A stretch of DNA of 32,960 bases from Sphingobacteriia bacterium (GCA_021286705.1 JAJTBW010000022.1:1-32960), one strand, 5' to 3'. Counted from the first letter of the stretch, positions 9,310-24,247 are shown. The notes: a model not told the origin generated them from the sequence alone. Translations and numbers: made by a program.

Positions 9310-10602
9310 TTATTTCACGATAACTAAGTAATAATTCTTTTTGCCTCTTTGAACCAGAATATATCTATCATTTAGAAGCATTGATTGAGTAATTAGAGTC
9401 TCTTCAGTAATCTTTTCACGGTTAAACATTACGCCACCCTCCTTCATTGTTCTTCTGGCTTCTCCTTTACTTGGGAAGATAGCGGTTATGCCGGCAAGGA
9501 AATCGGAGGCATTAAGATCATTATTAAGTGATTCTTTCTCGATTTCAAACTGGGGGACCCCATCAAAAACGGAAAGTAGGGTTTTCTCATCTAGTTTTCT
9601 GAGCGTTTCGGTAGTTCCTTTTCCAAAGAGAATTTCCGATGCTTCAATTGCAGACTGGAGGTCAGCCTCTGAATGTACATTGATGGTCAGATCATTTGCC
9701 AGTGCTTTCTGAAGGATGCGAGTATGCGGAGCAAGAGCATGTTCTGCTTCAAGTTGTTCAATCTCACTCTTTGATCTGAGAGTGAAAATTCGGATATAAC
9801 GTGATGCATCAGCATCAGAGACATTGATCCAGAATTGGTAGAACTGGTAAGGTGAGGTGCGTTCTGGGTCAAGCCAGATATTTCCTTTCTCGGTTTTGCC
9901 GAATTTCCCACCATCTGCTTTTGTTATTAGCGGGCAAGTCAAGGCATAGGCCTCTCCTCCGGCTATACGCCTGATCATCTCTGTCCCTGTGGTAATATTC
10001 CCCCATTGGTCAGAACCACCCATCTGAAGTTTGCAGTTGTATTCTTTATACAAATGAAGGTAATCGTATCCCTGAACCAATTGATAGGTAAATTCGGTAA
10101 ATGACATTCCTTCACCGGTATCTCCACTGATTCTCTTCTTTACAGAGTCTTTAGCCATCATGTAGTTTACAGTGATGTGCTTACCTACATCGCGAATGAA
10201 CCCCAAGAAAGAGAACTCTCTCATCCAGTCATAGTTATTAACCATGAGAGCCTGATTCTCTGCTTTGGTTTCGAAGTCTAGAAACTTTGCAATCTGTTTT
10301 TTTATGCTCTCCTGGTTGTGCCTAAGGGTAGGTTCATCTAATAGGTTTCTCTCCTGAGATTTGCCGGATGGGTCTCCTATCATTCCTGTAGCACCACCAA
10401 CCAATACGACAGGACGATGGCCACAACTTTGTAAGTGTCTTAGCATCATAATGCCAACCAGATGGCCAATGTGAAGAGAGTCAGCAGTGGGGTCTATTCC
10501 AACATAGGCGGTGACAACCTCTTTAAGAAGTAAATCTTCAGTTCCCGGCATAACATCATGGATCATGCCTCTCCAGCGTAACTCTTCAACAAAATTCTTC
10601 AT
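9310..10602 (-). CDS. tyrS: Tyrosyl-tRNA synthetase
   Basis: TyrRS, a class I synthetase that charges tRNA-Tyr in the cytoplasm. The product is 430 aa. HIGH is at 44-47 ([10 protein letters not shown]), the KMSKS equivalent is KFGKT at 233-237, and the tyrosine-pocket segment [13 protein letters not shown] is at about 173-185. A C-terminal S4 RNA-binding domain begins near [17 protein letters not shown]. The frame is open 29 codons further upstream, but the ATG at 10602 gives the usual [16 protein letters not shown] start, and the upstream part lies across the promoter box at 10623-10630. The gene ends at the terminator at 9221-9250. Confidence 0.96.
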
Positions 10603-10622
10603 CTTTCGGTTATTATAAAGGG

Positions 10623-10630
10623 CAAAGTTA
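10623..10630 (-). promoter_or_regulatory. -7 box for tyrS
   Basis: The minus strand reads TAACTTTG, matching TAnnTTTG, 20 bp before the chosen tyrS start at 10602. It supports that start over the longer frame. No good -33 TTG lies at the usual distance. Confidence 0.5.
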
Positions 10631-10778
10631 CGAATTTGTGAGAGAATTGGATTACAACCATATCTAGCCAATGTTTTCAATGGCCTCAATGAAAGTTGAC
10701 CAAATTTGATCTGTACCGCAGTTCTATCTATCAGTATTGAGTTATTCCGCTAGTTAATAGCGTAATGGTTGAAATAAC

Positions 10779-10786
10779 TACATTTG
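10779..10786 (+). promoter_or_regulatory. -7 box 4 bp before the epimerase ATG
   Basis: TACATTTG is an exact TAnnTTTG match. Only TATT separates it from the ATG at 10791, so transcription should start at or very near the start codon, giving a leaderless or nearly leaderless mRNA. The -33 region is weak (GTT at 10753). Confidence 0.5.
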
Positions 10787-10790
10787 TATT

Positions 10791-11789
10791 ATGATTTTAT
10801 TAACCGGCTCAACAGGGCTACTCGGTGGCCAAATATTATCGTTACTCAATGATTCAGGCAAGGAGGTCAGAGCATTGGTGAGAAGGGTTCCTTCTCAGGA
10901 GGAGCTCATGATGAGGGGCATAAAGCGACCCGAGTTAATTGAATGGATAGTAGGTGATGTTACAGATGTTGAGTCTGTTGGTAGAGCCATGAAAGGGATT
11001 AGTTTGGTTATTCATTGTGCAGCATTCGTCTCTTTTAAATCAAAGGATAAAGCTGAGATTTTAAAAGTAAATGTTAACGGGACGACTAATATGGCAAATA
11101 TCGCCTTGGATGAAGGGGTTGATTATTTCGTTCATGTTAGTTCCATAGCGGCACTGGGCACTATTCCCGGAAAGGCACTAACAGATGAAGGTGATCCTTG
11201 GGATGATGTTCCAAAAGGATCTGTCTATGGGCAAAGTAAGTTTTTAGCCGAACGGGAGGTCTGGAGGGCAATAGGCGAAGGATTACCTGCGGTCATAGTG
11301 AACCCTAGTGTTATTTTAGGCCCTGGCGATTGGTCAAAAGGTAGTTCGGCTCTCTTTAAAAATGTGTGGGATGGGCTTAAATATTATACCCATGGTGTAA
11401 ATGGTTATGTAGATGTTGTTGATGTTGCTAAAGCCATTCTATTTCTTGTTGAGAGAAGAGTTATAGGAGAGCGATTCGTACTAAATGGCTCGAATTTAGA
11501 CTACAAGAAACTCTTTGATCTGATTGCTGAATCTCTTAATCGTCCATCTCCTCACAAATATGTATCTGCTTTTAAAGGGGAGATAGCCTGGCGTCTTTTT
11601 GCTATTAAGAGTTTTTTCACAGGTAATGATTCACTGGTTACTAAAGAGACAGCCAGGGCAGCGCAGAGGACATACCGCTATAGTTCGGATAAAATTGAAA
11701 AACTTGGATTTCGGTTTACTCCTATAGAGGAAACTATTCAGAAGACCGCTATACTGCTATTGAAAGAGAATACAGGGAATGCTACTTAG
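10791..11789 (+). CDS. NAD-dependent epimerase/dehydratase (extended SDR)
   Basis: A 332-aa cytoplasmic extended short-chain dehydrogenase/reductase. The cofactor loop GSTGLLG (G6-x2-G9-x2-G12) starts right after the first beta strand MILLTG, which fixes the start codon. The catalytic YxxxK is Y146/K150 in SVYGQSKFLAE, with SS at 117-118 in FVHVSSIAALG. NPSVILGPGDW near 171-181 and the later VVDVAKAI segment are typical of the dihydroflavonol-reductase/sugar-epimerase branch. The substrate is unknown. It converges with the DUF218 gene, their stops overlapping at 11786-11789, and has its own promoter box. Confidence 0.88.
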   Translation: MILLTGSTGLLGGQILSLLNDSGKEVRALVRRVPSQEELMMRGIKRPELIEWIVGDVTDVESVGRAMKGISLVIHCAAFVSFKSKDKAEILKVNVNGTTNMANIALDEGVDYFVHVSSIAALGTIPGKALTDEGDPWDDVPKGSVYGQSKFLAEREVWRAIGEGLPAVIVNPSVILGPGDWSKGSSALFKNVWDGLKYYTHGVNGYVDVVDVAKAILFLVERRVIGERFVLNGSNLDYKKLFDLIAESLNRPSPHKYVSAFKGEIAWRLFAIKSFFTGNDSLVTKETARAAQRTYRYSSDKIEKLGFRFTPIEETIQKTAILLLKENTGNAT

Positions 11790-12520
11790 ATCCATCCATT
11801 TAACCAATACCAGGTAATTGCGAAGTACTCACGTAATACGGTAATTTCGATTTTGAGGTAATTCCACATATTATATCGGAGAGCAGGGTTGCGACCAGGA
11901 TTATCAATTATTGTTGGTTTCTCAGTTTGTTTGAGGAGTAATGATTCATCTATCGCATTTTCATAAGAGGCAAGTCCTGAGACAAGCTTAAAACCTGCCC
12001 TTTGAAAGGTCTTAATAGATCTATAAATGTGCTCTGGGGAAGTTATGATTAGAAGGGAACTATTAGCGGAAATTTTAAGATCATTTTTTATGGTGAGAGC
12101 CTGTTCATGAGTGTTAGTCCCTTTGATCTCAAATATAAAGCGGGTTGAATCTACACCCCGTAACCTCATCTCTTGGTACATCTTGTAGGTGTGACTCTGT
12201 TTGAAATATTGTGGGAGTGTAGGTAAGGCAATAATGACTTGTGACGTCACATAGGCTTTGGCAGCCTCTGATCCATAATAGCATCTCATTATAGCCTCGG
12301 CACTAGGCATACCACCGGCTCCTAAAACTACAATGTAATCCGGAGAATTATAAGCTTTTTGATGAGGACAGGAGAGTCTATATGAGGCATAAAATGGGAT
12401 ACTTGTGAAGCTTAAAGCAATCAAAACTGACGAAAAGAGGCCGATCATAAAGATTATCCTAATGATTGAAATCTTCAAGATTCCTATGACCTTTTTTATG
12501 TGAAGTTTCTTCAGCATCAT
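11786..12520 (-). CDS. SanA/YdcF-like DUF218 membrane-anchored protein
   Basis: A 244-aa protein with an N-terminal transmembrane segment (about residues 13-40) and a DUF218 domain outside. Family landmarks are DYIVVLGAGGMPSAEA (about 62-77), IIALPTLP, GTNTHEQALTIKND with the conserved TxxEA-like Glu/Gln (about 133-146), and LLIITSPEHIYRSIKTFQRAGF (156-177). E. coli SanA and YdcF belong here; envelope-barrier or lipid-carrier roles have been proposed for the family, but the biochemistry is unclear. Two Met codons open the frame (12520, 12517); Met25 (12448) is an alternative if the -7 box 4 bp upstream does not give a leaderless mRNA. Confidence 0.8.
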   Translation of the reverse strand: MMLKKLHIKKVIGILKISIIRIIFMIGLFSSVLIALSFTSIPFYASYRLSCPHQKAYNSPDYIVVLGAGGMPSAEAIMRCYYGSEAAKAYVTSQVIIALPTLPQYFKQSHTYKMYQEMRLRGVDSTRFIFEIKGTNTHEQALTIKNDLKISANSSLLIITSPEHIYRSIKTFQRAGFKLVSGLASYENAIDESLLLKQTEKPTIIDNPGRNPALRYNMWNYLKIEITVLREYFAITWYWLNGWI

Positions 12521-12524
12521 GAAG

Positions 12525-12532
12525 CAAAAGTA
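12525..12532 (-). promoter_or_regulatory. -7 box 4 bp before the DUF218 gene
   Basis: The minus strand reads TACTTTTG, an exact TAnnTTTG match, then CTTC and ATGATG. As with the epimerase gene, this suggests a leaderless mRNA or a start codon further in. No clear -33 element. Confidence 0.45.
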
Positions 12533-12718
12533 TGATTATTTTATTCGAAATGGTGCTTACTTTTAGTTCAATATGTTGCGATAAGTCATTGGTATAATGT
12601 AAATATGTTGGATGGTTAATGGTTTGGCACGCCAATTGTGATAGTTGTTTTTACTACCAATTAGCGCTAAGGGAGTTGAGCTTTTGTCATGACTGTTAAT
12701 TCATTAGCTGTCATTTGT

Positions 12719-12738
12719 TAGAAACAATAGTGTTTCTA
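12719..12738. promoter_or_regulatory. 20-bp palindrome before the six-helix membrane protein gene
   Basis: TAGAAACA-ATAG-TGTTTCTA has perfect 8-bp arms and ends 24 bp before the ATG at 12763. It could be an operator or a leader hairpin that shields the translation start. No TAnnTTTG box was found nearby. Confidence 0.4.
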
Positions 12739-12762
12739 TAATACAATTAAAATTTCTAGATT

Positions 12763-13341
12763 ATGGAAAAGAAAGATTTTAGCGATACTATACTACTCGC
12801 CAAGTTAGATGCATTTTTATTTCTCTTTTTAGGAGTTGCAATGTTTTTGCAGCCATCCTTCTCTGCAATTGCTATTTATGGATTCTTGATTGTCTTAGCA
12901 CTTGTAAGTTTTGCTAAAGGCTTTGTAAGAGAGGTAATGGGTCAGCAGACACTGGGTTGGGTCAGCCGACTGATTAGTGTGGGTTATTTTTCTATGGTAC
13001 TATTAGTTGGTTGGGTTATAACTACAAATAGACCAGGTTCAGTTGGGCTTAATAGTGAGTTTCTGAGCAAATTATTTGGTGTGGCTGTTCTTTATTTAAT
13101 CTTGACGGTAGCGTCAAAGGCTTCAACAATGATAGTTCAGGCGTTGAAAAAGGAGCCAATCGGAAGGTCTGTTTTCGTAGCGCTGGGTTTAATGGTTGTG
13201 ACCATGATTTCTGTTGATAGCTATAAGACTACTTTCGATAGCACAATTGGAACAATAACTGGTGTTCTTGCTCTATTGGCCTCTTTAGCCCTTTTTACAT
13301 CCTCTGTTCAAAGTAGTAGAAAACCTGAGCTGGTATATTAA
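12763..13341 (+). CDS. Six-helix membrane protein, possibly HdeD/DUF308-like
   Basis: A 192-aa inner-membrane protein with about six hydrophobic segments (roughly 12-30, 32-50, 65-87, 101-118, 134-150, 160-180) and short charged loops such as KGFVREVMGQQ and QALKKEPIGRS. The size and the six-helix plan resemble DUF308/HdeD proteins, but I see no diagnostic motif, so the family is a guess. It stands alone: the gene before it is divergent and the gene after it is convergent. A 20-bp palindrome lies just ahead of its start. Confidence 0.65.
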   Translation: MEKKDFSDTILLAKLDAFLFLFLGVAMFLQPSFSAIAIYGFLIVLALVSFAKGFVREVMGQQTLGWVSRLISVGYFSMVLLVGWVITTNRPGSVGLNSEFLSKLFGVAVLYLILTVASKASTMIVQALKKEPIGRSVFVALGLMVVTMISVDSYKTTFDSTIGTITGVLALLASLALFTSSVQSSRKPELVY

Positions 13342-13504: not shown

Positions 13505-14851
13505 TTAGAACGTAAGCGTGAAAGTAGCTCCTTGGTCAGGTTTAGAATTGACGGTGATGGTTCCTTTATGAAGATGCATGATCTGACGGGAGAGACTTAA
13601 GCCTATTCCTGATCCTTCCTTTTTGGATGTGAAGAAAGGCATGAATATTTTGTCGATAAGGTCTGGAGAGATCCCCTGCCCGTTGTCGGTAACCTCGATA
13701 ATAACTTTTCCTGATTTGTTTGTCAGTGCCTTAAATAGGATACTCTTGTCGTTTGTGTTTCTTAATGCCTCTTTTGCGTTTAGGGCGAGGTTAATAAGTA
13801 CTTGGTCAAGTAAATCAGGATCTGCAGTAATCATTAGATCATCAGGAGATAGTAAATAGTTAGTTTTAATTTCTAGTTCCTCAAATTGGTTTCCCATTAG
13901 TCGATCTAAACGTTTAAAGGCCTCGGCAACCGCGAAATATTTAAAATTGGGCTTAGGAATTCGTGTTAGGTCGCGATAGAGCTCCATAAAAGAGAGGAGA
14001 CCCTTACTTCTGTTGGCTATTGTCTCTATGGCTTGTTGTATACTGGCTCTATCTTCATTATCGAGAGGAATTGGAGTTCCATCCTCAGAAAACATCATAT
14101 CATTCAATGTCCCGGCGAGTGATGAAATCGGGGTAATTGAATTCATGATTTCATGTGTTAGAACCCTTATAAGGCGTTGCCATGATTCGATCTCTTTCTC
14201 TTCAAGTTCTGATCTTATATCCTGTAAAGAGAGCAGGGTGAAGAGTTCATTTCTAAGTTTGAACTGGGTAGAGTGGATGTTTAATTGCTTTAACTGACCA
14301 TCTACTGAGATTTTGATTAGTTGTCTTTGGCCTGATTTTAAGGATAAAACGGATGTTTTAAGTTTCTCTGAGACTGTTGAAAGGTCATTAATATATCTTA
14401 AATCACTGATGCCTAGTAGTTCGCTGGCAGCATGGTTAAACATATCAACCTTTCCGTCTTCTTTAAAGACAAGAACTCCAATTGAAATATGCGAGACGAC
14501 CGTTTGAAGGTAGCTTAGATGCTCTTCTTTTGATGTTCTATTGCTTTTAAGCTCTTTAATGATCGCATTAAAGGAGGCATTCAAGTTGCTAAAAGAGTCA
14601 CTTAGGTTATCATCGGAAAAGGTTGGTGAGAAGTCTCCATGCTTAACGTACTCGAGAAAACGAGTCAACTTTCGGTTTGATTGCTCGGTATATCGAAATA
14701 GTTCAAAAACAAGAATTAAAAGAATAATCCATAAAGTAATTGCCGGGAATAGCATACTGGGCATCATTGTAATCCATGAGGCGCAGATTGCAGTACCCGA
14801 TATTGCAATTATTCTAAGGAAAATTCTTTTTTGGAAGCCGTTAAAGACCAT
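13505..14851 (-). CDS. NtrY-like sensor histidine kinase
   Basis: A 448-aa membrane sensor kinase. Two transmembrane helices lie close together (about 10-30 and 33-53) with almost no periplasmic loop, so it probably senses a membrane or cytoplasmic signal. A HAMP-like linker (about 55-102) and a PAS domain (about 112-212) follow. The H-box is LIRVLTHEIMNSITPISS with phosphorylated His233, and the ATPase domain shows N (LINLALNAKEAL), G1 (VTDNGQGIS) and G2 (KKEGSGIGLSLSRQIM). It overlaps the response regulator gene upstream by 11 bp, so the two are co-translated. It is predicted to phosphorylate Asp56 of that regulator. Length and domain order fit NtrY-type kinases common in Bacteroidota. Confidence 0.9.
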   Translation of the reverse strand: MVFNGFQKRIFLRIIAISGTAICASWITMMPSMLFPAITLWIILLILVFELFRYTEQSNRKLTRFLEYVKHGDFSPTFSDDNLSDSFSNLNASFNAIIKELKSNRTSKEEHLSYLQTVVSHISIGVLVFKEDGKVDMFNHAASELLGISDLRYINDLSTVSEKLKTSVLSLKSGQRQLIKISVDGQLKQLNIHSTQFKLRNELFTLLSLQDIRSELEEKEIESWQRLIRVLTHEIMNSITPISSLAGTLNDMMFSEDGTPIPLDNEDRASIQQAIETIANRSKGLLSFMELYRDLTRIPKPNFKYFAVAEAFKRLDRLMGNQFEELEIKTNYLLSPDDLMITADPDLLDQVLINLALNAKEALRNTNDKSILFKALTNKSGKVIIEVTDNGQGISPDLIDKIFMPFFTSKKEGSGIGLSLSRQIMHLHKGTITVNSKPDQGATFTLTF

Positions 14852-16220
14852 GTTTTTCTATTCTTCTATATAGAGAGGCACGGGTTAGTCCGAGTTCACG
14901 AGCAGCCTTACTAATGTTTCCTCCATGTTTATCGATCACTTTTCTTATAAGTACTTTTTCTGTCTCACCAAGATTAGTTGATCCAGTATAAAACTCATCG
15001 TTTCTATCGTCATCAGATGAGGGGAAGAAAAAATCCTGGGGCTCAAGAATATTACTTTCGCTAAGAATAACAGCTCTTTCAACAGCATGTTCAAGTTCTC
15101 TGATATTTCCTGGCCATCCATGCTTTTCTAATCGCTTCATCGTATTTGGAGCAATTCTTTTTAGTGGCATCTTATACCGACGGCAGTATATATTGAGGAA
15201 GTGCTCGGCTAAGAGACTGATATCTTCTGTCCTCTCTCTTAGAGATGGAACTTGTATTTCAACTGTATTGATTCGATAGAGTAAGTCTTGCCTGAATTTC
15301 CCCTCTTGTACCATTTGGTATAAAGGCATGTTTGTGGCGCATATTAGCCTAATGTCAATAGGAATCTCTCTGTTTGTGCCAAGTCTGACTACTTTACGGC
15401 TCTGAAGAACAGAGAGTAACTTAGATTGAAGAGGGAATGAGAGATTTCCAATCTCGTCTAAAAAGATAGTCCCTTTATTAGCTGCTTCAAATCTTCCGGC
15501 GCGATCTTCTCTTGCATCGGTAAATGCCCCTTTCTTAAAACCAAAGAGTTCACTCTCAAATAATGATTCACTTATCGCACCTAAGTCAACACTTACAAAT
15601 ACCTCATCTCTTCTCGGCGAGGCCCTATGTATCGCTCTGGCAATTAACTCTTTTCCTGTGCCATTCTCTCCAAGAATGAGAACAGTAGCATCAGTTGCTG
15701 CTACTTTATTTACTGTGGTGAGAACTTTCATCATTGAGGGAGAATTCCCAATGATATGCTCGTAGGGGTCGTTTTGTTGTGTAAGGAGGGTTTTCTTTTT
15801 ATTTCTTAAATCTTCTAGTTCACGATTATTTTCGCTCACTTTGAGGTTAGCCTGAATCTCTGCAAGAAGCTTTTTGTTATCCCAGGGCTTAAGTAGGAAA
15901 TTTGTAGCACCCTCTTTAATACCCTGTACAGCCAATTCAATATCGCCATATCCGGTAATGAAAATTACAACTGCAGCAGGGTCAATCTCCAAGATTTTAT
16001 TCAACCAAAAGAAGCCCTCCTTGCCGCTCGTTGACTCTCTTGAGAAGTTCATATCAAGCAGAATGATGTCGTAGTTTTCATTTTTAAGAAGGGCTGTTAT
16101 ATTCTGTGGATCGGGCTCTGTATGGACAGTAGTAAAATGTTGTTTAAGGAATAGCTTTGCTGCAAGCAAGACATCCCTATCATCATCTATAATTAAAACT
16201 TTGGCTTCTGTCTTATCCAT
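14841..16220 (-). CDS. NtrC-like sigma-54 response regulator
   Basis: A 459-aa cytoplasmic response regulator with three domains. The receiver (1-120) has the acidic pocket DDD near 12-14, the phospho-acceptor D56 (IILLDMNFS) and K near 111 (LLKPWD). The AAA+ domain has Walker A GENGTGKE and Walker B GTIFLDEIG. The Fis-type helix-turn-helix is GGNISKAARELGLTRASLYR at the C-terminus. The sigma-54 contact loop reads GAFTDA instead of GAFTGA, a variant I associate with Bacteroidota regulators. The frame is open to 16295, but that stretch overlaps the -7 box at 16293-16300, so the ATG at 16220 is chosen. It is first in an operon with the kinase. The shared dyad suggests it controls itself and the ABC exporter at 24287. 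Confidence 0.92.
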   Translation of the reverse strand: MDKTEAKVLIIDDDRDVLLAAKLFLKQHFTTVHTEPDPQNITALLKNENYDIILLDMNFSRESTSGKEGFFWLNKILEIDPAAVVIFITGYGDIELAVQGIKEGATNFLLKPWDNKKLLAEIQANLKVSENNRELEDLRNKKKTLLTQQNDPYEHIIGNSPSMMKVLTTVNKVAATDATVLILGENGTGKELIARAIHRASPRRDEVFVSVDLGAISESLFESELFGFKKGAFTDAREDRAGRFEAANKGTIFLDEIGNLSFPLQSKLLSVLQSRKVVRLGTNREIPIDIRLICATNMPLYQMVQEGKFRQDLLYRINTVEIQVPSLRERTEDISLLAEHFLNIYCRRYKMPLKRIAPNTMKRLEKHGWPGNIRELEHAVERAVILSESNILEPQDFFFPSSDDDRNDEFYTGSTNLGETEKVLIRKVIDKHGGNISKAARELGLTRASLYRRIEKHGL

Positions 16221-16292
16221 AACTAGTTCTTTTTTAGAGAGACGAAATGGTAATTGATTGATGTAATAAGAATCAAAAAAATGATTCAAGTC

Positions 16293-16323
16293 CAAATGTA
16301 TATAATTGTTCGTTATCGAACAA
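16293..16323 (-). promoter_or_regulatory. Promoter of the two-component operon, overlapped by an 18-bp dyad
   Basis: The minus strand reads TTG, 20 bp, TACATTTG (box at 16300-16293), matching both Bacteroidota elements at the normal spacing. The -33 TTG is the first three bases of the perfect dyad TTGTTCGATAACGAACAA (16323-16306). A protein on the dyad would cover the -33 region. Predicted transcription start is near 16287. Confidence 0.65.
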
Positions 16324-18613: not shown

Positions 18614-18638
18614 GACACAAGGTATTTTGGTGTGTGTC
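18614..18638. promoter_or_regulatory. GACACA/TGTGTC inverted repeat
   Basis: GACACA (18614-18619) and TGTGTC (18633-18638) form an inverted repeat with a 13-bp spacer. It is the second of three dyads between the AcoR-like gene and the alcohol dehydrogenase gene. It could be an activator site or part of a transcript-end hairpin. Confidence 0.3.
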
Positions 18639-18643
18639 ATAAT

Positions 18644-18689
18644 AATTAACACTCTTTGGCATTAGGGACAAGTTCAAAGAGTGTTAATT
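18644..18689. promoter_or_regulatory. Perfect 15-bp-arm inverted repeat, candidate enhancer site
   Basis: AATTAACACTCTTTG (18644-18658) and CAAAGAGTGTTAATT (18675-18689) are exact reverse complements around a 16-bp spacer. The centre is about 77 bp upstream of the predicted sigma-54 start for the alcohol dehydrogenase gene, within the range used by enhancer-binding proteins. It could instead fold as an RNA hairpin ending the AcoR-like transcript, but the following TTGTTTG is a poor T-run. Confidence 0.5.
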
Positions 18690-18716: not shown

Positions 18717-18732
18717 TGGCATAAGAATGGTA
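18717..18732 (+). promoter_or_regulatory. Candidate sigma-54 (-24/-12) promoter of the alcohol dehydrogenase
   Basis: TGGCATAAGAATGGTA aligns with TGGCACG-N4-TTGCA: the -24 GG is present and the spacing to the -12 dinucleotide is the required 10 bp, but the dinucleotide is GT rather than GC. It predicts transcription start near 18743, 21 bp before the ATG. No TAnnTTTG box competes. Confidence 0.4.
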
Positions 18733-18763: not shown

Positions 18764-19930
18764 ATGGCACGTTTTACACTTCCCCGCGATCTCTACTTTG
18801 GAAAAGGAACACTCGCAGAATTAAAAAACCTCAAAGGAAACAGAGCAATCATAGTAACCGGAGGTAGCAGTATGAGAAAAGCAGGTTTTTTGCAGAAGAC
18901 CGAGTCATATTTGCAAGAAGCTGGAATGGAAGTAAAAATCATTGATGGGGTTGAACCCGATCCTTCGGTAGAGACAGTAATGAAAGGTGCAGAAATCATG
19001 AGAGAGTTTCAGCCCGATTGGATTGTCTCAATTGGAGGTGGTAGTCCGATTGATGCTGCAAAAGCGATGTGGATTTTCTACGAACATCCTGAAGCAAAAT
19101 TTGAGGATGTAGCAAAACCTTTTAACATTCCTCAGTTACGAAATAAAGCTCGTTTTGTAGCCATACCCTCAACTAGTGGAACGGCAACAGAGGTTACAGC
19201 TTTCTCCGTAATCACAGATTATAGTAAAGGAATTAAATACCCTTTAGCTGATTTTGAAATCACTCCTGATATTGCTATTGTTGACCATGAGCTAGCTCTT
19301 GGCATGCCACAAGAACTTACCGCTCACACTGGTATGGATGCCATTACTCATGCAACTGAAGCATACGTTGCCGCTCTTCATTCAGATTTTACTGATCCCC
19401 TGGCGTTGAAAGCAATTGCTATGATCAAGGAGAACCTTCTGAAGTCATATAATGGTGACGCAGATGCTCGTGAAAAGATGCACTATGCACAGTGTTTAGC
19501 CGGAATGGCCTTTAGCAACGCATTGCTCGGAATAGTTCACAGTATGGCACACAAAACGGGAGCCATTTTCCATATCCCTCATGGCTGTGCAAATGCAATT
19601 TATCTTCCTTATGTAATTGATTACAATAAGAAGGTTGCTGGTCAAAGATTAGCAGAGATTGGTAGATACCTGGGTCTTCCGGGAACTACAGATGATCAGC
19701 TTATTGATAGCTATACTTCAATGCTTATTGATATGAATAAGCAACTAAATATCCCTCTCTCTCTTAAGGAGTTTGGTGTGAAAGAAGAGGATTTCCTCGC
19801 CAACTTGGACAGAATCAGCAACAATGCTGTTTTGGATGCTTGCACCGGGTGTAATCCAAGAGAGACAACTGTTGACGATTTTAAAAAGATCTTTAAGGCT
19901 GTTTATTACGGTACCAAGATCGACTTCTAA
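18764..19930 (+). CDS. Iron-containing alcohol dehydrogenase
   Basis: A 388-aa cytoplasmic group III (iron-dependent) alcohol dehydrogenase that interconverts aldehydes and primary alcohols with NAD(P)H. The cofactor stretch is WIVSIGGGSPIDAAKA (86-101), followed by AIPSTSGTATEVTAF (133-147). The four metal ligands of the FucO/DhaT fold are all visible: D192 and H196 in GMDAITHATEAY, H263 in HSMAHKTG and H273 in PHG. Length is typical. It is likely the reductive end step of fermentation (ethanol, butanol or a diol; the substrate cannot be told). It follows the AcoR-like activator by 181 bp of site-rich DNA and precedes the Rex-like gene, which suggests redox-responsive expression. Confidence 0.93.
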   Translation: MARFTLPRDLYFGKGTLAELKNLKGNRAIIVTGGSSMRKAGFLQKTESYLQEAGMEVKIIDGVEPDPSVETVMKGAEIMREFQPDWIVSIGGGSPIDAAKAMWIFYEHPEAKFEDVAKPFNIPQLRNKARFVAIPSTSGTATEVTAFSVITDYSKGIKYPLADFEITPDIAIVDHELALGMPQELTAHTGMDAITHATEAYVAALHSDFTDPLALKAIAMIKENLLKSYNGDADAREKMHYAQCLAGMAFSNALLGIVHSMAHKTGAIFHIPHGCANAIYLPYVIDYNKKVAGQRLAEIGRYLGLPGTTDDQLIDSYTSMLIDMNKQLNIPLSLKEFGVKEEDFLANLDRISNNAVLDACTGCNPRETTVDDFKKIFKAVYYGTKIDF

Positions 19931-19973: not shown

Positions 19974-19999
19974 GCCCGATGGTCTTAGTACCATCGGGC
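19974..19999. other. Strong 10-bp GC-rich hairpin followed by an A-tract
   Basis: GCCCGATGGT (19974-19983) and ACCATCGGGC (19990-19999) pair around a 6-nt loop, 44 bp after the alcohol dehydrogenase stop. On the plus strand it is followed by CATTAT and then a run of ten A, not T, so it is not a normal terminator in either direction. It may be an mRNA 3'-end or processing element, or an operator for the Rex-like gene starting at 20018. Confidence 0.55.
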
Positions 20000-20017
20000 C
20001 ATTATAAAAAAAAAATT

Positions 20018-20659
20018 ATGAAAATGCCAGCTTTAAATGATCAGGTGACTATACAGGAGGCTTTAGGGCGTTTAAAAAAGTATGCCGAGACGGGGCGAAA
20101 AATGCTCAGGATTGGCGTTACAACTCTTACTGCTTCAGAGATCGCTTCTGAAACTTCGATTGAGGTGGAAGAGGTTCTTGGCGACTTGGCCAATCAACCT
20201 GATAAAATGAATCAAAGTACAGCATTTGAACTTGAGCAACTTGTTCTAGCAATTGAACTATTATTTACTCAAGGGAAAGAGAAAAAAGTGATAATCAGTG
20301 GTAACCATTCTGCTGTCGAAAGATTATTTGACAGTTGGGAATATCAAGGTTTTGGATTTAAACCTGTTTTAATTCTTTCTGATGATTACCATGGAATGGT
20401 TCCTGCAGGTGCTGAACTATTGAGAACTAATGACTCATCATTAAAGAAAAAAGGGGAGCATACTAATATATCAGGTGTCATTGCTGCTGATATTGAATAT
20501 GCTCAGAAATATGCTCAATCATTGGTTGAAAATGGAGTCTCAGAGATCTGGAATTTTAGTCCGCTTTTAGTTGAGGTTCCTGAAGAAATTCATGTAGAGA
20601 ATGTTATCCCCGGATATCCAAAATGGCCAGTGAGCAATATGGTTGCATTCAAGAATTAG
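20018..20659 (+). CDS. Divergent Rex-like protein
   Basis: A 213-aa protein matching the layout of the NADH sensor/repressor Rex. There is a winged-helix-like N-terminus (ALGRLKKY ... TLTASEIASETSIEVEEVLGDL), a linker helix FELEQLVLAIELLF, a Rossmann start KKVIISGNHSAVERL, and a closing segment AQKYAQSLVENGVSEIWNFSP followed by VEVPEEIHVENV, which corresponds to Rex ILNF(A/T) and VPEDV. The usual GxGNLG NADH loop is replaced by SGNHSA, and the recognition-helix R-(K/R)-D-L by VLGDL, so both NADH and DNA binding may be altered. Start: the frame opens at 19979 inside the hairpin, so the ATG at 20018 is preferred. Family call made by eye, moderately sure. Confidence 0.6.
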   Translation: MKMPALNDQVTIQEALGRLKKYAETGRKMLRIGVTTLTASEIASETSIEVEEVLGDLANQPDKMNQSTAFELEQLVLAIELLFTQGKEKKVIISGNHSAVERLFDSWEYQGFGFKPVLILSDDYHGMVPAGAELLRTNDSSLKKKGEHTNISGVIAADIEYAQKYAQSLVENGVSEIWNFSPLLVEVPEEIHVENVIPGYPKWPVSNMVAFKN

Positions 20660-20890: not shown

Positions 20891-21163
20891 ATGAATAAAA
20901 AGCACAGCATTACAATTTGTCTTGGGAGTTCTTGTTATACTCGAGGGAATGATGTTAACCTTGAGATTATAAAAAACTTTCTTCAAGTAAATGGTCTTAA
21001 AGATCAAATAGATTTCAGAGGACATCTTTGCGAAAACTCATGCAGTCGTGGTCCTATGATAAAAATTGATGGTACAATCTATTATGAGGTAACATCAAGC
21101 CAAATTGAGAAAATACTACTTGATACACTGTTACCCTCGGGAAAAACAGTTGTTTCTCTTTGA
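20891..21163 (+). CDS. NuoE-like thioredoxin-fold [2Fe-2S] protein
   Basis: A 90-aa cytoplasmic ferredoxin-like protein of the NuoE/HydC C-terminal (thioredoxin-fold) type. The four cluster ligands are in CLGSSCYTRGN (C-x4-C) and GHLCENSCSRGP (C-x3-C), the exact NuoE spacing, followed by MIKIDGTIYYEVTSSQIEKIL, which matches the family's end. Start: MNKKHSITICLG fits the family start. The ATG at 20843 would add 16 residues, with an aaggag 11 bp upstream, and cannot be excluded. It lies 11 bp before the hydrogenase-like gene, so it is probably its electron partner. NuoE-like subunits normally hand electrons between NAD(P)H flavoproteins and hydrogenases, but no NuoF-like partner is in the window. 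Confidence 0.88.
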   Translation: MNKKHSITICLGSSCYTRGNDVNLEIIKNFLQVNGLKDQIDFRGHLCENSCSRGPMIKIDGTIYYEVTSSQIEKILLDTLLPSGKTVVSL

Positions 21164-21174
21164 AATAATTAGAA

Positions 21175-22875
21175 ATGATTAGTGATTTACCGGTATATAC
21201 TCTAAGTAACAACTGCCAGGACTGTTACAAGTGTATCAGAGAATGTCCTGTAAAGGCCATTCGGATGGAACAGAACAGGGCAGGGATTATAGCAGAACTT
21301 TGTGTGAGTTGTGGTCATTGTACCGCAGTTTGTCCCGCAGGTGCAAAGAAATATCGAAACGATACCGGTATTGTCCAAAATTGGTTAGATGAAGGAAGCG
21401 ATGTTGTCTTATCGTTGGCTCCTTCCTACGTTGTTTTACATGGAGGTAAAAAAGGGGAGATAGTTAGACGTATTAAAGCTTCAGGATTTACACGTGTCTC
21501 TGAGACGGCACTTGGAGCTGAAATTGTTAATAGAAAGACAGAGGAGTGGTTAGAGAAAAGAAGACCCAATCTGGCAATTAGCAGTGCTTGTCCTGCTGTT
21601 GTTAATCTTATCCATCAGTATTATCCGGAGTTATCAGAATATATCGTACCGGTAGCCTCCCCGATGCTGGTTCATGCAAGAATGCTCAGACAATTGGTTG
21701 GCAAGCAGGCTAAGATTGTATTTGCGGGACCTTGTATTGCTAAGAAATACGAAGCAGATAATAGTGAAGGGCTTATTGATGCAGCCATCACATTTGATGA
21801 GTTACAAGATATTTTAGATGAGGCACCAAGTCATGATGCTATGGCTAACCTAGATTCATGGTTTCCTTTTCCTGCTGCTGACTGCAGGATTTATCCTATG
21901 GAGGGAGGCATGATTCGAGGTTTAAACAGTGTGCCCAAAGAGTATCATACTATGGCCTTCTCTGGGATGGAGAACTGTAAAGCAATCCTAAGCGACCTTA
22001 GGGAAAATAGTCCTGATACACCTCTCTTTCTTGAGTTGATGGCGTGTCAGGGTGGCTGCCTTATGGGTCCCGGAGTTACTACAAAGGGGTCGGTAGCCAT
22101 CAGACAGTTAAGAATACCAAATGACCTGGTTAATGGAAAGCACGATAAGCCATGGCCTATTGCAATCCCTGCAATATTCCCTCCTGCAAAGATGGCTCGT
22201 AGGGCATCTTTTACCTGTGTCCATAGTGAAGATGAAATGCGAAGTGCACTCGAGAGTGTTGGAAAGCACTCTGCTGCTGATGAGTTGAACTGTAGTGGTT
22301 GTGGATACGATAGTTGTCGCGAACTTGCTATAGCCATGTTAGATGGAAAAGCAGAGAGAACACAATGCGTTAGCTATATGAGAAGAGTGGCAAATGATAA
22401 GGCTACGGTTCTTATAGAGAAGATTCCATTTGGTGTAGTAATGGTTGATGATCAACTCAGGATTGTTGATGCCAATAAGCAGTTTGCTGAACTAATAGGG
22501 GGCGATTTACCCATGATGTTTGAGGCTACTAATAGCCTTTATGGGGCAGATCTGAAAAAGATTATCCCGTTTTATAAACTCTTCTCTGCAGTCCTTGATT
22601 CTGGTGAAGAGAAAGTAGAGCATGATTTACGCGTTGATGATAAATTCTTTAGGGTCTCTGTTATTACTATACGTAAGTATAAACTCGTAACCGGGATGAT
22701 TGAAAACCTCAGAGATGAACGCACCCGACATCAAGTGGCAGTTGATAGACTTCAAGACGTCATCAGCAAGAATATGAAGGTAGTTCAGGAGATCGCATAC
22801 TTGCTCGGTGAAAATGCTGCCTATACTGAATCAATGCTTCACTCTGTAATAGACTCTCATGAAGACAAAGATTAA
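21175..22875 (+). CDS. Sensory [FeFe]-hydrogenase-like protein with Fes and PAS domains
   Basis: A 566-aa cytoplasmic protein. Two 4Fe-4S motifs come first: C14/C17/C20/C24 and C43/C46/C49/C53. The H-cluster domain (about 75-340) keeps all four cluster cysteines: C139 (SSACP), C187 (GPCIAKKYE), and C291 and C295 (MACQGGC). The residue before C139 is Ala138 where catalytic enzymes have the proton-transfer Cys, and the L2 Met is Gly185. Both changes are typical of sensory (HydS, group C/D) hydrogenases. An Fes-type cluster domain follows (C373, C376, C381, C398), then a PAS domain (about 412-515) and a C-terminal helical tail. It probably senses H2 or ferredoxin redox state and signals to the phosphatase whose gene overlaps it by 17 bp. 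Catalytic turnover would be low at best. Confidence 0.92.
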   Translation: MISDLPVYTLSNNCQDCYKCIRECPVKAIRMEQNRAGIIAELCVSCGHCTAVCPAGAKKYRNDTGIVQNWLDEGSDVVLSLAPSYVVLHGGKKGEIVRRIKASGFTRVSETALGAEIVNRKTEEWLEKRRPNLAISSACPAVVNLIHQYYPELSEYIVPVASPMLVHARMLRQLVGKQAKIVFAGPCIAKKYEADNSEGLIDAAITFDELQDILDEAPSHDAMANLDSWFPFPAADCRIYPMEGGMIRGLNSVPKEYHTMAFSGMENCKAILSDLRENSPDTPLFLELMACQGGCLMGPGVTTKGSVAIRQLRIPNDLVNGKHDKPWPIAIPAIFPPAKMARRASFTCVHSEDEMRSALESVGKHSAADELNCSGCGYDSCRELAIAMLDGKAERTQCVSYMRRVANDKATVLIEKIPFGVVMVDDQLRIVDANKQFAELIGGDLPMMFEATNSLYGADLKKIIPFYKLFSAVLDSGEEKVEHDLRVDDKFFRVSVITIRKYKLVTGMIENLRDERTRHQVAVDRLQDVISKNMKVVQEIAYLLGENAAYTESMLHSVIDSHEDKD

Positions 22876-24052
22876 GGATACGGCGTTTCTTGAGACTGGT
22901 GCTTTTCTTCTTAGTAAGTTTGGTAATGAGGTTTGCGGGGACACTATAATGACTCGTCGCATCAAGGAGGAAAACAGGTATGTCGCTGTTTTATCTGATG
23001 GATTGGGTAGTGGTATCAGAGCAAATGTACTATCATCTCTTACAGCCTCCATGGCGCTTAATTTTACCTTAAGACATGAGCCGGTCAGAAGAACTGCGGA
23101 AACTATAATGCAGACTCTCCCCGTTGATAATAGGAGAAATATAAGCTATAGTACTTTTACAATTATCGATATTGATTTTTCTGGTGAGGCGGTAATAGTG
23201 GAGTATGATAATCCCAGGTTAATGATTATCAGAGATAATGAGGCATATTATCCAAATCGTGAACCATTTTTTGTACAAGGCACTGGTGGTGAGAAAAAAC
23301 TATGGCAGTCGGCGTGGGTCTTGAAACCTGATGATCGACTAATTGTGGTCTCAGATGGCGTAATTCAATCTGGGATTGGTGGTCAACTGACCCCTTTTGG
23401 TTGGGAGGAAGATGGTTTTAAAGGCTATGTTCTGGCATTATTAGAAAATCAACCGGATATCTCAGCTCGTGATTTAGCAAAGAAAATTGTGCTTAGAAGT
23501 AAGGCTAACGATCATTTGGAACCGAAGGATGATATTTCAGCTATGGTCTTCTATTATCGTCAACCTCGAAGAATGCTTATCTGCAGTGGCCCACCTTATG
23601 ATAATGGTCGAGATAGTCAGCTTGCCTCCTCGGTCTCCGATTTTCAGGGAATAAAAGTGATTTGCGGGGGTACTACCGCTCAAATAATCTCACGTGAGCT
23701 CAACAGACCTGTATCTGTTACACTCTCTTCTCCACAGCCGGGAGTGCCGCCGCAGGCCTCTATGGCAGGTGTTGACCTTATTACAGAGGGAATCTTGACT
23801 CTGGGTAAGCTGGGTGAGACCCTCGAATCGGGTGCATTTGATGAAATACCGGCTCATAGCCCTGTGGCTTTAATGTCAAAGTATATCTTAGACTCAGATA
23901 TAATTGAGTTTATTGTTGGAACGAGGATTAACCAGGCGCATCAGGATCCCGCTCTGCCCGTTGAACTAGAGATCAGGAGAAATATAATCAAACGGATTGC
24001 CCGGATCCTTGAAGAGAAATATCTAAAAGAGGTTGTTATCCATTATTTATAG
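22859..24052 (+). CDS. SpoIIE-type PP2C phosphatase with extra C-terminal domain
   Basis: A 397-aa cytoplasmic protein. Residues about 1-235 form a SpoIIE/RsbU-type PP2C Ser/Thr phosphatase with its metal aspartates intact: D28 in CGD, D47 in AVLSDGLGSG, D in RLIVVSDGV and DD in PKDDISAMVF. Residues about 240-397 form a second domain starting RRMLICSGPPYDNGRD and including FQGIKVICGGTTAQIISREL (about 261-280). I do not recognise this domain; it may be a regulatory or substrate-binding part. The start codon overlaps the end of the hydrogenase-like gene by 17 bp, so the two are translationally coupled, fitting phosphatase-linked sensory hydrogenases. No anti-sigma kinase or STAS substrate is in the window, so its target is unknown. 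Confidence 0.88.
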   Translation: MKTKIKDTAFLETGAFLLSKFGNEVCGDTIMTRRIKEENRYVAVLSDGLGSGIRANVLSSLTASMALNFTLRHEPVRRTAETIMQTLPVDNRRNISYSTFTIIDIDFSGEAVIVEYDNPRLMIIRDNEAYYPNREPFFVQGTGGEKKLWQSAWVLKPDDRLIVVSDGVIQSGIGGQLTPFGWEEDGFKGYVLALLENQPDISARDLAKKIVLRSKANDHLEPKDDISAMVFYYRQPRRMLICSGPPYDNGRDSQLASSVSDFQGIKVICGGTTAQIISRELNRPVSVTLSSPQPGVPPQASMAGVDLITEGILTLGKLGETLESGAFDEIPAHSPVALMSKYILDSDIIEFIVGTRINQAHQDPALPVELEIRRNIIKRIARILEEKYLKEVVIHYL

Positions 24053-24142
24053 ACTCCTGTTTGTTTGGTATTGAGGCAGGGTTATTTCATTAGATTCTGG
24101 GATCTTCTTCTGAGGTCGCAGTCACAAAAAAATGTCTTATTA

Positions 24143-24183
24143 TTGTTCAATAATGGACAAGCACTTTGAACGGCATTGAACAA
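24143..24183. promoter_or_regulatory. Two tandem TTGTTC-N6-GAACAA-like sites upstream of the ABC exporter
   Basis: Site 1 is TTGTTCAATAATGGACAA (24143-24160), one mismatch from the dyad. Site 2 is TTGAACGGCATTGAACAA (24166-24183), with a perfect right half. Their centres are 23 bp apart. The outer halves also form a perfect 12-bp inverted repeat (24140-24151 with 24175-24186). The same dyad, intact, lies on the promoter of the NtrC-like regulator at 16306-16323. Paired sites about 100 and 122 bp upstream of a promoter are the classic arrangement for sigma-54 activators. Confidence 0.6.
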
Positions 24184-24247
24184 TAAGTATTATCCAGGAT
24201 ACAAAATGTATTCCGTATTGCGTTGATAATCTGTTATCTCTTTTCCG

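Follow-up and report, generated by a model that had tools for sequence, protein, structure and literature searches.

Sensory [FeFe]-hydrogenases with a phosphatase partner are listed in HydDB as [FeFe] group C3, 'phosphatase-linked (putative)' (PMC5037454). Here we describe a predicted member of this class in a 32,960-nucleotide stretch of DNA from a Sphingobacteriia bacterium (GCA_021286705.1 JAJTBW010000022.1:1-32960; the window), where genes for a NuoE-like [2Fe-2S] protein, the hydrogenase-like protein HydS and a PP2C phosphatase form a cassette. Comparable genes are known from Ruminococcus albus and Thermoanaerobacterium. The pRUMAL01 cluster of R. albus 7 (NC_014824; L083) has the order Rex, adhE, phosphotransferase, two [2Fe-2S] genes, HydS, a SpoIIE phosphatase and HydA2 (a 4Fe-4S hydrogenase), and an R. 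albus cluster with ferredoxin-only hydrogenase, alcohol/aldehyde dehydrogenase and sensory hydrogenase drops 111-fold when an H2 consumer is co-cultured with the bacterium (PMC6776011). For the Thermoanaerobacterium hfsABCD operon, the published accounts describe HfsB as a HydS-type protein with a PAS domain and HfsC as a serine phosphatase (PMC11837493, PMC5707799). This operon is linked genetically to adhE and ethanol: deletion of hfsA or hfsB raises the adhE transcript and NADH-dependent alcohol dehydrogenase (ADH) activity (PMC5707799), and a high ethanol yield requires the presence of hfsD, hydAB and nfnAB together with the absence of hfsB (PMC11837493).

The window resembles the R. albus 7 cluster in bringing together a Rex-type gene, an alcohol dehydrogenase, a [2Fe-2S] protein, HydS and a PP2C phosphatase, and the two HydS proteins are homologous over their full length (30% over 98%). 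It differs in having an iron-containing ADH (Fe-ADH) instead of AdhE, in placing the ADH ahead of the Rex-like gene, in the degeneration of that Rex, in an added AdhR-like activator, and in containing one [2Fe-2S] gene, no phosphotransferase and no HydA2. The cassette shares the PAS-bearing HydS and the phosphatase with hfsABCD, but it has no hfsD-type hydrogenase. An activator with GAF, PAS, AAA+ and helix-turn-helix (HTH) parts and an iron ADH also occur in the AdhR/SigL-adhA unit of Clostridium beijerinckii, there with a -24/-12 promoter, for which the window has a weak candidate; this unit is not reported to include a sensory hydrogenase (PMC7017808). From its published description, the Thermotoga maritima HydS has an H-cluster domain (H-domain) with PAS and the same alanine at the proton-relay position, but carries Ser267 where the window HydS has Met289 (PMC10055695).

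The three-gene cassette and its class

The [2Fe-2S] and HydS genes are separated by an 11-bp gap (21164-21174), and the HydS and PP2C reading frames overlap by 17 bp (22859-22875). A prediction made for this locus before the present analysis (the original prediction) had placed the three frames, the gap and the overlap exactly to the base, and had proposed that the genes work as one unit. A scan of 84,980 species, which yielded 80 loci with a full-length HydS, agrees with this proposal. The PP2C gene lies directly 3' of HydS in 79 of 79 loci whose contig continues, so that the phosphatase partner is present throughout rather than missing, and a [2Fe-2S] gene precedes HydS in 71 of 78 relatives; the arrangement is not a matter of chance. 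The three-gene order recurs in Bacteroidota, and the module is widespread in Bacteroidales.

The HydS loci occur in Bacteroidota, Spirochaetota, Desulfobacterota and Acidobacteriota. Named Bacteroidota genera with HydS include Butyricimonas, Odoribacter, Lentimicrobium and Tidjanibacter, with Butyricimonas synergistica DSM 23225 and Odoribacter laneus as cultured carriers of the class. The description of the class as known mostly from Firmicutes thus understated its range, while the assignment of the genome to a Bacteroidota-like organism agrees with its named relatives, which are Bacteroidota. Within the family, window-type HydS proteins are found in three genomes at 54-55% identity (G002, G006, G008) and in another at 44% (G004), with PP2C adjoining each. 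In a phylum-wide search with the phosphatase, about 16 of the 395 genomes sampled, not counting its own, had a nearly full-length match; weak matches confined to residues 10-235 resemble SpoIIE domains of the ordinary kind. One Bacteroidota contig carries two HydS-PP2C pairs in tandem (L106:5725-8616 and 10001-12894).

Pfam identifies Fer4 clusters, Fe_hyd_lg_C, the FeS domain PF04060 and PAS_8 in HydS. The Fes and PAS domains follow the hydrogenase domain, as had been proposed, and the AlphaFold2 model (predicted local distance difference test, pLDDT, 84.9) agrees; the PAS call combines a partial PAS_8 match with this model, in which a PAS-like fold is followed by two terminal helices (residues 515-563). 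The NuoE-like protein is assigned to 2Fe-2S_thioredx and has cysteine spacings of C-x4-C and C-x3-C. By alignment, the H-cluster ligands of HydS are Cys139, Cys187, Cys291 and Cys295, which are invariant across the aligned relatives. Ala138 takes the position of CpI Cys299 and Gly185 that of CpI Met353, and Met289 is retained at the position of CpI Met497. The four cysteines, Ala138 and Gly185 had all been named correctly in advance. Alanine at the proton-relay position is common in sensory enzymes (~43%; PMC10055695). Most of the aligned group B enzymes likewise have glycine in the L2 position, and for this reason Gly185 alone is not a mark of a sensory enzyme.

The phosphatase (pLDDT 89.5) resembles SpoIIE-class phosphatases over residues 7-237, with matches to 3pu9 (Z 26.1, root mean square deviation (rmsd) 2.7, 223 residues aligned) and to SpoIIE 5ucg (Z 24.8, rmsd 2.4, 213 aligned). 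Of its metal-site aspartates, Asp47, Asp224 and Asp225 are invariant and Asp28 and Asp166 nearly so. Residues 238-397 have no Pfam match, and in the Foldseek and VIA-align lists for the whole protein, which are filled by the PP2C domain, this C-terminal domain is unmatched. It is a candidate for the contact with HydS.

A tree of the H-domain (79 rows, 272 columns) was anchored by R. albus, Monoglobus and Acetoanaerobium rather than by HydDB, T. maritima, T. mathranii or T. saccharolyticum reference sequences. Group A splits off with a support of 100 (Shimodaira-Hasegawa-like approximate likelihood ratio test). The window HydS and three orthologues group at 98 within a PP2C-linked clade, the sister of which is formed by the HydS proteins of R. 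albus, Monoglobus and Acetoanaerobium (support 92). Forcing the window H-domain into group A is rejected by the approximately unbiased (AU) test (p 0.000148). The H-domain therefore falls outside catalytic group A. HydS scores 88 bits against TIGR02512 (cut-off 406) and 178.7 against TIGR04105 (cut-off 450). A catalytic group A or B enzyme was considered and rejected on the tree, the AU test and the domain content.

These results, together with the conserved gene order, bear out the earlier call of a phosphatase-linked sensory hydrogenase. From the tree, the domains and the neighbouring genes, rather than from the HydDB classifier, the cassette is predicted to be a group C3 sensor. As in group C3, there is a group C type H-domain with PAS and an adjacent Ser/Thr phosphatase; the window copy differs in belonging to a sigma54/ADH unit and in having no H2-evolving hydrogenase as a neighbour. 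The class itself has already been described. New here are the sigma54/ADH unit, the degenerate Rex, the absence of a neighbouring hydrogenase and the joint occurrence of PAS and PP2C across H-domain lineages.

The alcohol dehydrogenase unit

The conserved unit begins to the left of the three genes, at about 16651 (Table 1). The original prediction stopped short of this and did not take in the genes for the sigma54 activator, the Fe-ADH and the Rex-like protein that are linked to the cassette, nor a second PP2C-linked HydS in the genome. The order sigma54 activator, Fe-ADH, Rex-like, [2Fe-2S], HydS and PP2C is shared by the window and three relatives (L095, L096 and L097). In these three loci an orthologue of the activator (67% identical) stands at the same place, and GACACC...GGTGTC occurs at the position matching the GACACA...TGTGTC repeat of the window. 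Fe-ADH orthologues beside HydS in the same family are 74-81% identical. A full AdhE was not found in the genome, and the AdhE alcohol domain has no close relative there other than the window Fe-ADH. A -24/-12-like element lies 47-72 bases upstream of all 16 cassette Fe-ADH genes tested; 13 of the 16 sites score at least 10, as against none of 313 control regions.

The NCBIfam match of the Rex-like protein to Rex is below the cut-off. The genome's own Rex and the cassette Rex of many relatives keep an intact GxGxxG NAD(H) loop, which has disappeared from the Rex-like protein of the window and of L095-L097. A group B-type hydrogenase is present in the cluster of 50 of 68 relatives; none is found downstream in the window or within 10 kb in L095-L097. 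NfnA- and NfnB-like genes, named from sequence resemblance judged by eye rather than by a profile search, precede the sensor genes in seven loci (L099, L103, L106, L107, L111, L127 and L136). In L105, L110, L114, L117, L123 and L126 (e.g. L110:7998-8906) an NfnA-like protein without the [2Fe-2S] cysteines, and without NfnB, is encoded between ADH and Rex; it may be an NfnA descendant that senses nucleotides. A Ser/Thr kinase gene was considered as a partner of the phosphatase and rejected, the ADH-HydS intervals of the relatives holding NfnA/NfnB-like or Rex-like genes instead. Downstream of the cassette, a perfect 12-bp inverted repeat (TTATTGTTCAAT/ATTGAACAATAA; 24140-24186) lies between PP2C and a HlyD/ABC/FtsX-type efflux operon, possibly as the site of a sigma54 response regulator encoded at 14841-16295.

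Table 1. Positions of the genes, domains and putative sites of the unit in the window
Feature	Position	Strand	Basis and remarks
AdhR-like sigma54 activator, GAF-PAS-AAA+-Fis HTH, 643 aa	16651..18582	+	Pfam; upstream TTG 16627 also possible
Inverted repeat GACACA...TGTGTC, candidate activator site	18614..18638	.	putative function
Perfect 15-bp inverted repeat AATTAACACTCTTTG/CAAAGAGTGTTAATT, candidate activator site	18644..18689	.	putative function
Sigma54 -24/-12-like site TGGCATAAGAATGGTA	18717..18732	+	weak in window, strong in relatives
Iron-containing alcohol dehydrogenase, closest to AdhE ADH half	18764..19930	+	Pfam, NCBIfam
Rex-like protein, NAD-binding glycine loop lost (VIISGNHSAVERL)	19979..20659	+	NCBIfam, alignment
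NuoE-like [2Fe-2S] thioredoxin-fold protein, 90 aa	20891..21163	+	PF01257 E 1.5e-8
HydS, sensory [FeFe]-hydrogenase-like protein, 566 aa	21175..22875	+	Pfam, tree, structure model
HydS N-terminal 2x[4Fe-4S] region, residues 12-57	21208..21345	+	Pfam
HydS H-cluster domain, residues 77-299	21403..22071	+	Pfam, alignment; Cys139, 187, 291, 295
HydS Fes [4Fe-4S] domain, residues 371-399	22285..22371	+	Pfam; PF04060 in 46/46 relatives
HydS PAS domain, ~residues 413-511	22411..22707	+	PAS_8; AlphaFold2 strands/helices
HydS C-terminal helices, residues 515-563, conserved LLGENAA motif	22717..22863	+	alignment, AlphaFold2
SpoIIE-type PP2C phosphatase, 397 aa	22859..24052	+	SpoIIE PF07228 E 1.1e-12
PP2C C-terminal alpha/beta domain, residues 238-397	23570..24049	+	conserved GGTT + AHQDP motifs

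Other hydrogenases and the PAS-PP2C pairing

The assembly to which the window belongs, as contig C146, measures 4.16 Mb, is 95% complete and contains eight Fe_hyd_lg_C matches as well as HydF and sigma54 genes. Group A hydrogenases are found on contigs C71, C12 and C31, and a group B enzyme on C158. Four Fe_hyd_lg_C proteins stay below the NCBIfam hydrogenase cut-offs, namely the window HydS, HydS proteins on C115 and C31, and a group D-like protein on C71. The set on C115 (G000:C115:36683-39732; L073:8678-12030) is a second [2Fe-2S]-HydS-PP2C cassette, of a type widespread in the order. On C31 (L081:790-9198), bifurcating-type hydrogenase genes are followed by a histidine-kinase-linked HydS, a response regulator, a kinase and an intact Rex. 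The group D-like hydrogenase on C71 (L080:526-3946; Fer4-H-Fes, no PAS) adjoins a HATPase_c_2 anti-sigma-like kinase and a PHP-like gene, and neighbours a group A hydrogenase set.

The H-domain of the C115 HydS groups with that of histidine-kinase-linked HydS proteins. Compared with the window, C115 is 45% identical in PP2C, 36% in PAS and 26% in the H-domain; its H-domain is 39% identical to that of the histidine-kinase-linked protein, which has no PAS. A single origin of all PP2C-linked H-domains is rejected by an AU test (p 0.0026, an optimistic value, as the test was framed after the tree had been seen). This mosaic of identities indicates that PAS and PP2C were exchanged as a pair, or that they stayed together as the other parts changed. 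In both cases the two behave as one output unit, paired with different H-domain lineages.

Signal, output and alternatives

In this fermenting member of the Bacteroidota, the position of the cassette directly behind an alcohol-making gene suggests a role in the choice between H2 and alcohol. In the reading that we favour, and regard as fairly probable, the cassette is a C3 sensory module in which a phosphatase output set by H2 or ferredoxin adjusts the disposal of reductant as alcohol or as H2. H2, or the balance of H2 and ferredoxin, would set the state of a low-turnover H-cluster, and the small [2Fe-2S] protein, like the [4Fe-4S] clusters, would equilibrate with it. The Fes-PAS part and the C-terminal helices would then alter the activity of bound PP2C. 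For group D it has been published that H2 does not reduce the C-terminal cluster (PMC13104023), which suggests that the link from HydS to the output is conformational rather than one of electron transfer. The phosphatase would act on a Ser/Thr-phosphorylated regulator, and the most likely outcome would be an adjustment of reductant disposal through the ADH of the same cluster, as an alternative to H2 release, with ADH transcription presumably driven by the sigma54 promoter and the AdhR-like activator.

Several observations weigh against this reading. An ADH lies within 8 kb of HydS in only 18 of 61 relatives, and ADH control is therefore not the sole role of the class. No kinase or substrate for the phosphatase was found in the cluster. 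The sigma54 site of the window is weak (8 matches, as many as 6% of the controls reach; shuffle p 0.03) and tied for weakest of the 16, yet it aligns with the elements of the orthologues. The described systems also differ in direction, the R. albus cluster being high at high H2 and loss of hfsB in Thermoanaerobacterium raising adhE.

The module may instead sense intracellular redox state, through reduced ferredoxin or the [2Fe-2S] partner, with the H-cluster serving only as an electron-equilibrating site. The conserved pair of [4Fe-4S] clusters with a separate [2Fe-2S] partner, the replacement of the proton-relay cysteine by Ala138 and the nfnAB genes in several relatives' cassettes are in its favour. 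The four H-cluster cysteines are nevertheless invariant across the relatives, and T. maritima HydS, with alanine at the same position, is still active (PMC10055695), so that we regard redox sensing as possible but doubtful. Somewhat less likely still is an action of the phosphatase on a STAS/anti-sigma partner switch in the manner of SpoIIE or RsbU, to which the ADH linkage would be incidental. The fold is closest to phosphatases of this type, HATPase_c_2 proteins occur in the genome, one of them beside the group D-like hydrogenase, and the ADH linkage is inconstant. On the other hand, ADH, NfnAB, Rex and HydA recur beside the cassette, and searches that covered STAS (PF01740) but not STAS_2 gave a single match in the genome, within a 546-aa frame. 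Likewise, as had been noted originally, neither a STAS protein nor an anti-sigma kinase was seen among the open reading frames of the window, STAS_2 again not being covered.

A decaying or rewired module, which may no longer control H2 metabolism in the family of the window, would fit the degenerate Rex and the lack of a nearby group B gene in L095-L097. HydS, PP2C and ADH are intact, however, and conserved between genera (54-55%, 64-67% and 80-81% identity), and we consider decay unlikely. That the domain is a catalytic H2-evolving enzyme, with the phosphatase regulating something else, is highly improbable: the intact H-cluster ligands and Met289 would allow it, but the tree places the domain in neither group A nor group B, its score is below the TIGR04105 cut-off, it is extended by Fes and PAS, and the genome has separate A- and B-type enzymes. 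A bolder form of our favoured reading, which we put forward only tentatively, is that PAS and the SpoIIE-type PP2C are a swappable output module on at least two H-domain lineages, which in this family feeds H2 information directly into a sigma54/AdhR alcohol operon as a new type of H2-controlled alcohol/H2 switch. In that case the phosphatase might dephosphorylate the AdhR-like activator or the degenerate Rex.

Rather than a new kind of system, the locus offers a useful lead on what the group C3 class does. The conserved ADH link, with its recognisable sigma54 promoter, provides a concrete candidate regulon for the common group C3 sensors, and the parts expected to be in contact can be named from the PAS-PP2C mosaic. 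Through the cultured Bacteroidota carriers of the class the question becomes testable outside Clostridia, and it has a bearing on how fermenters of gut and sediment release H2.

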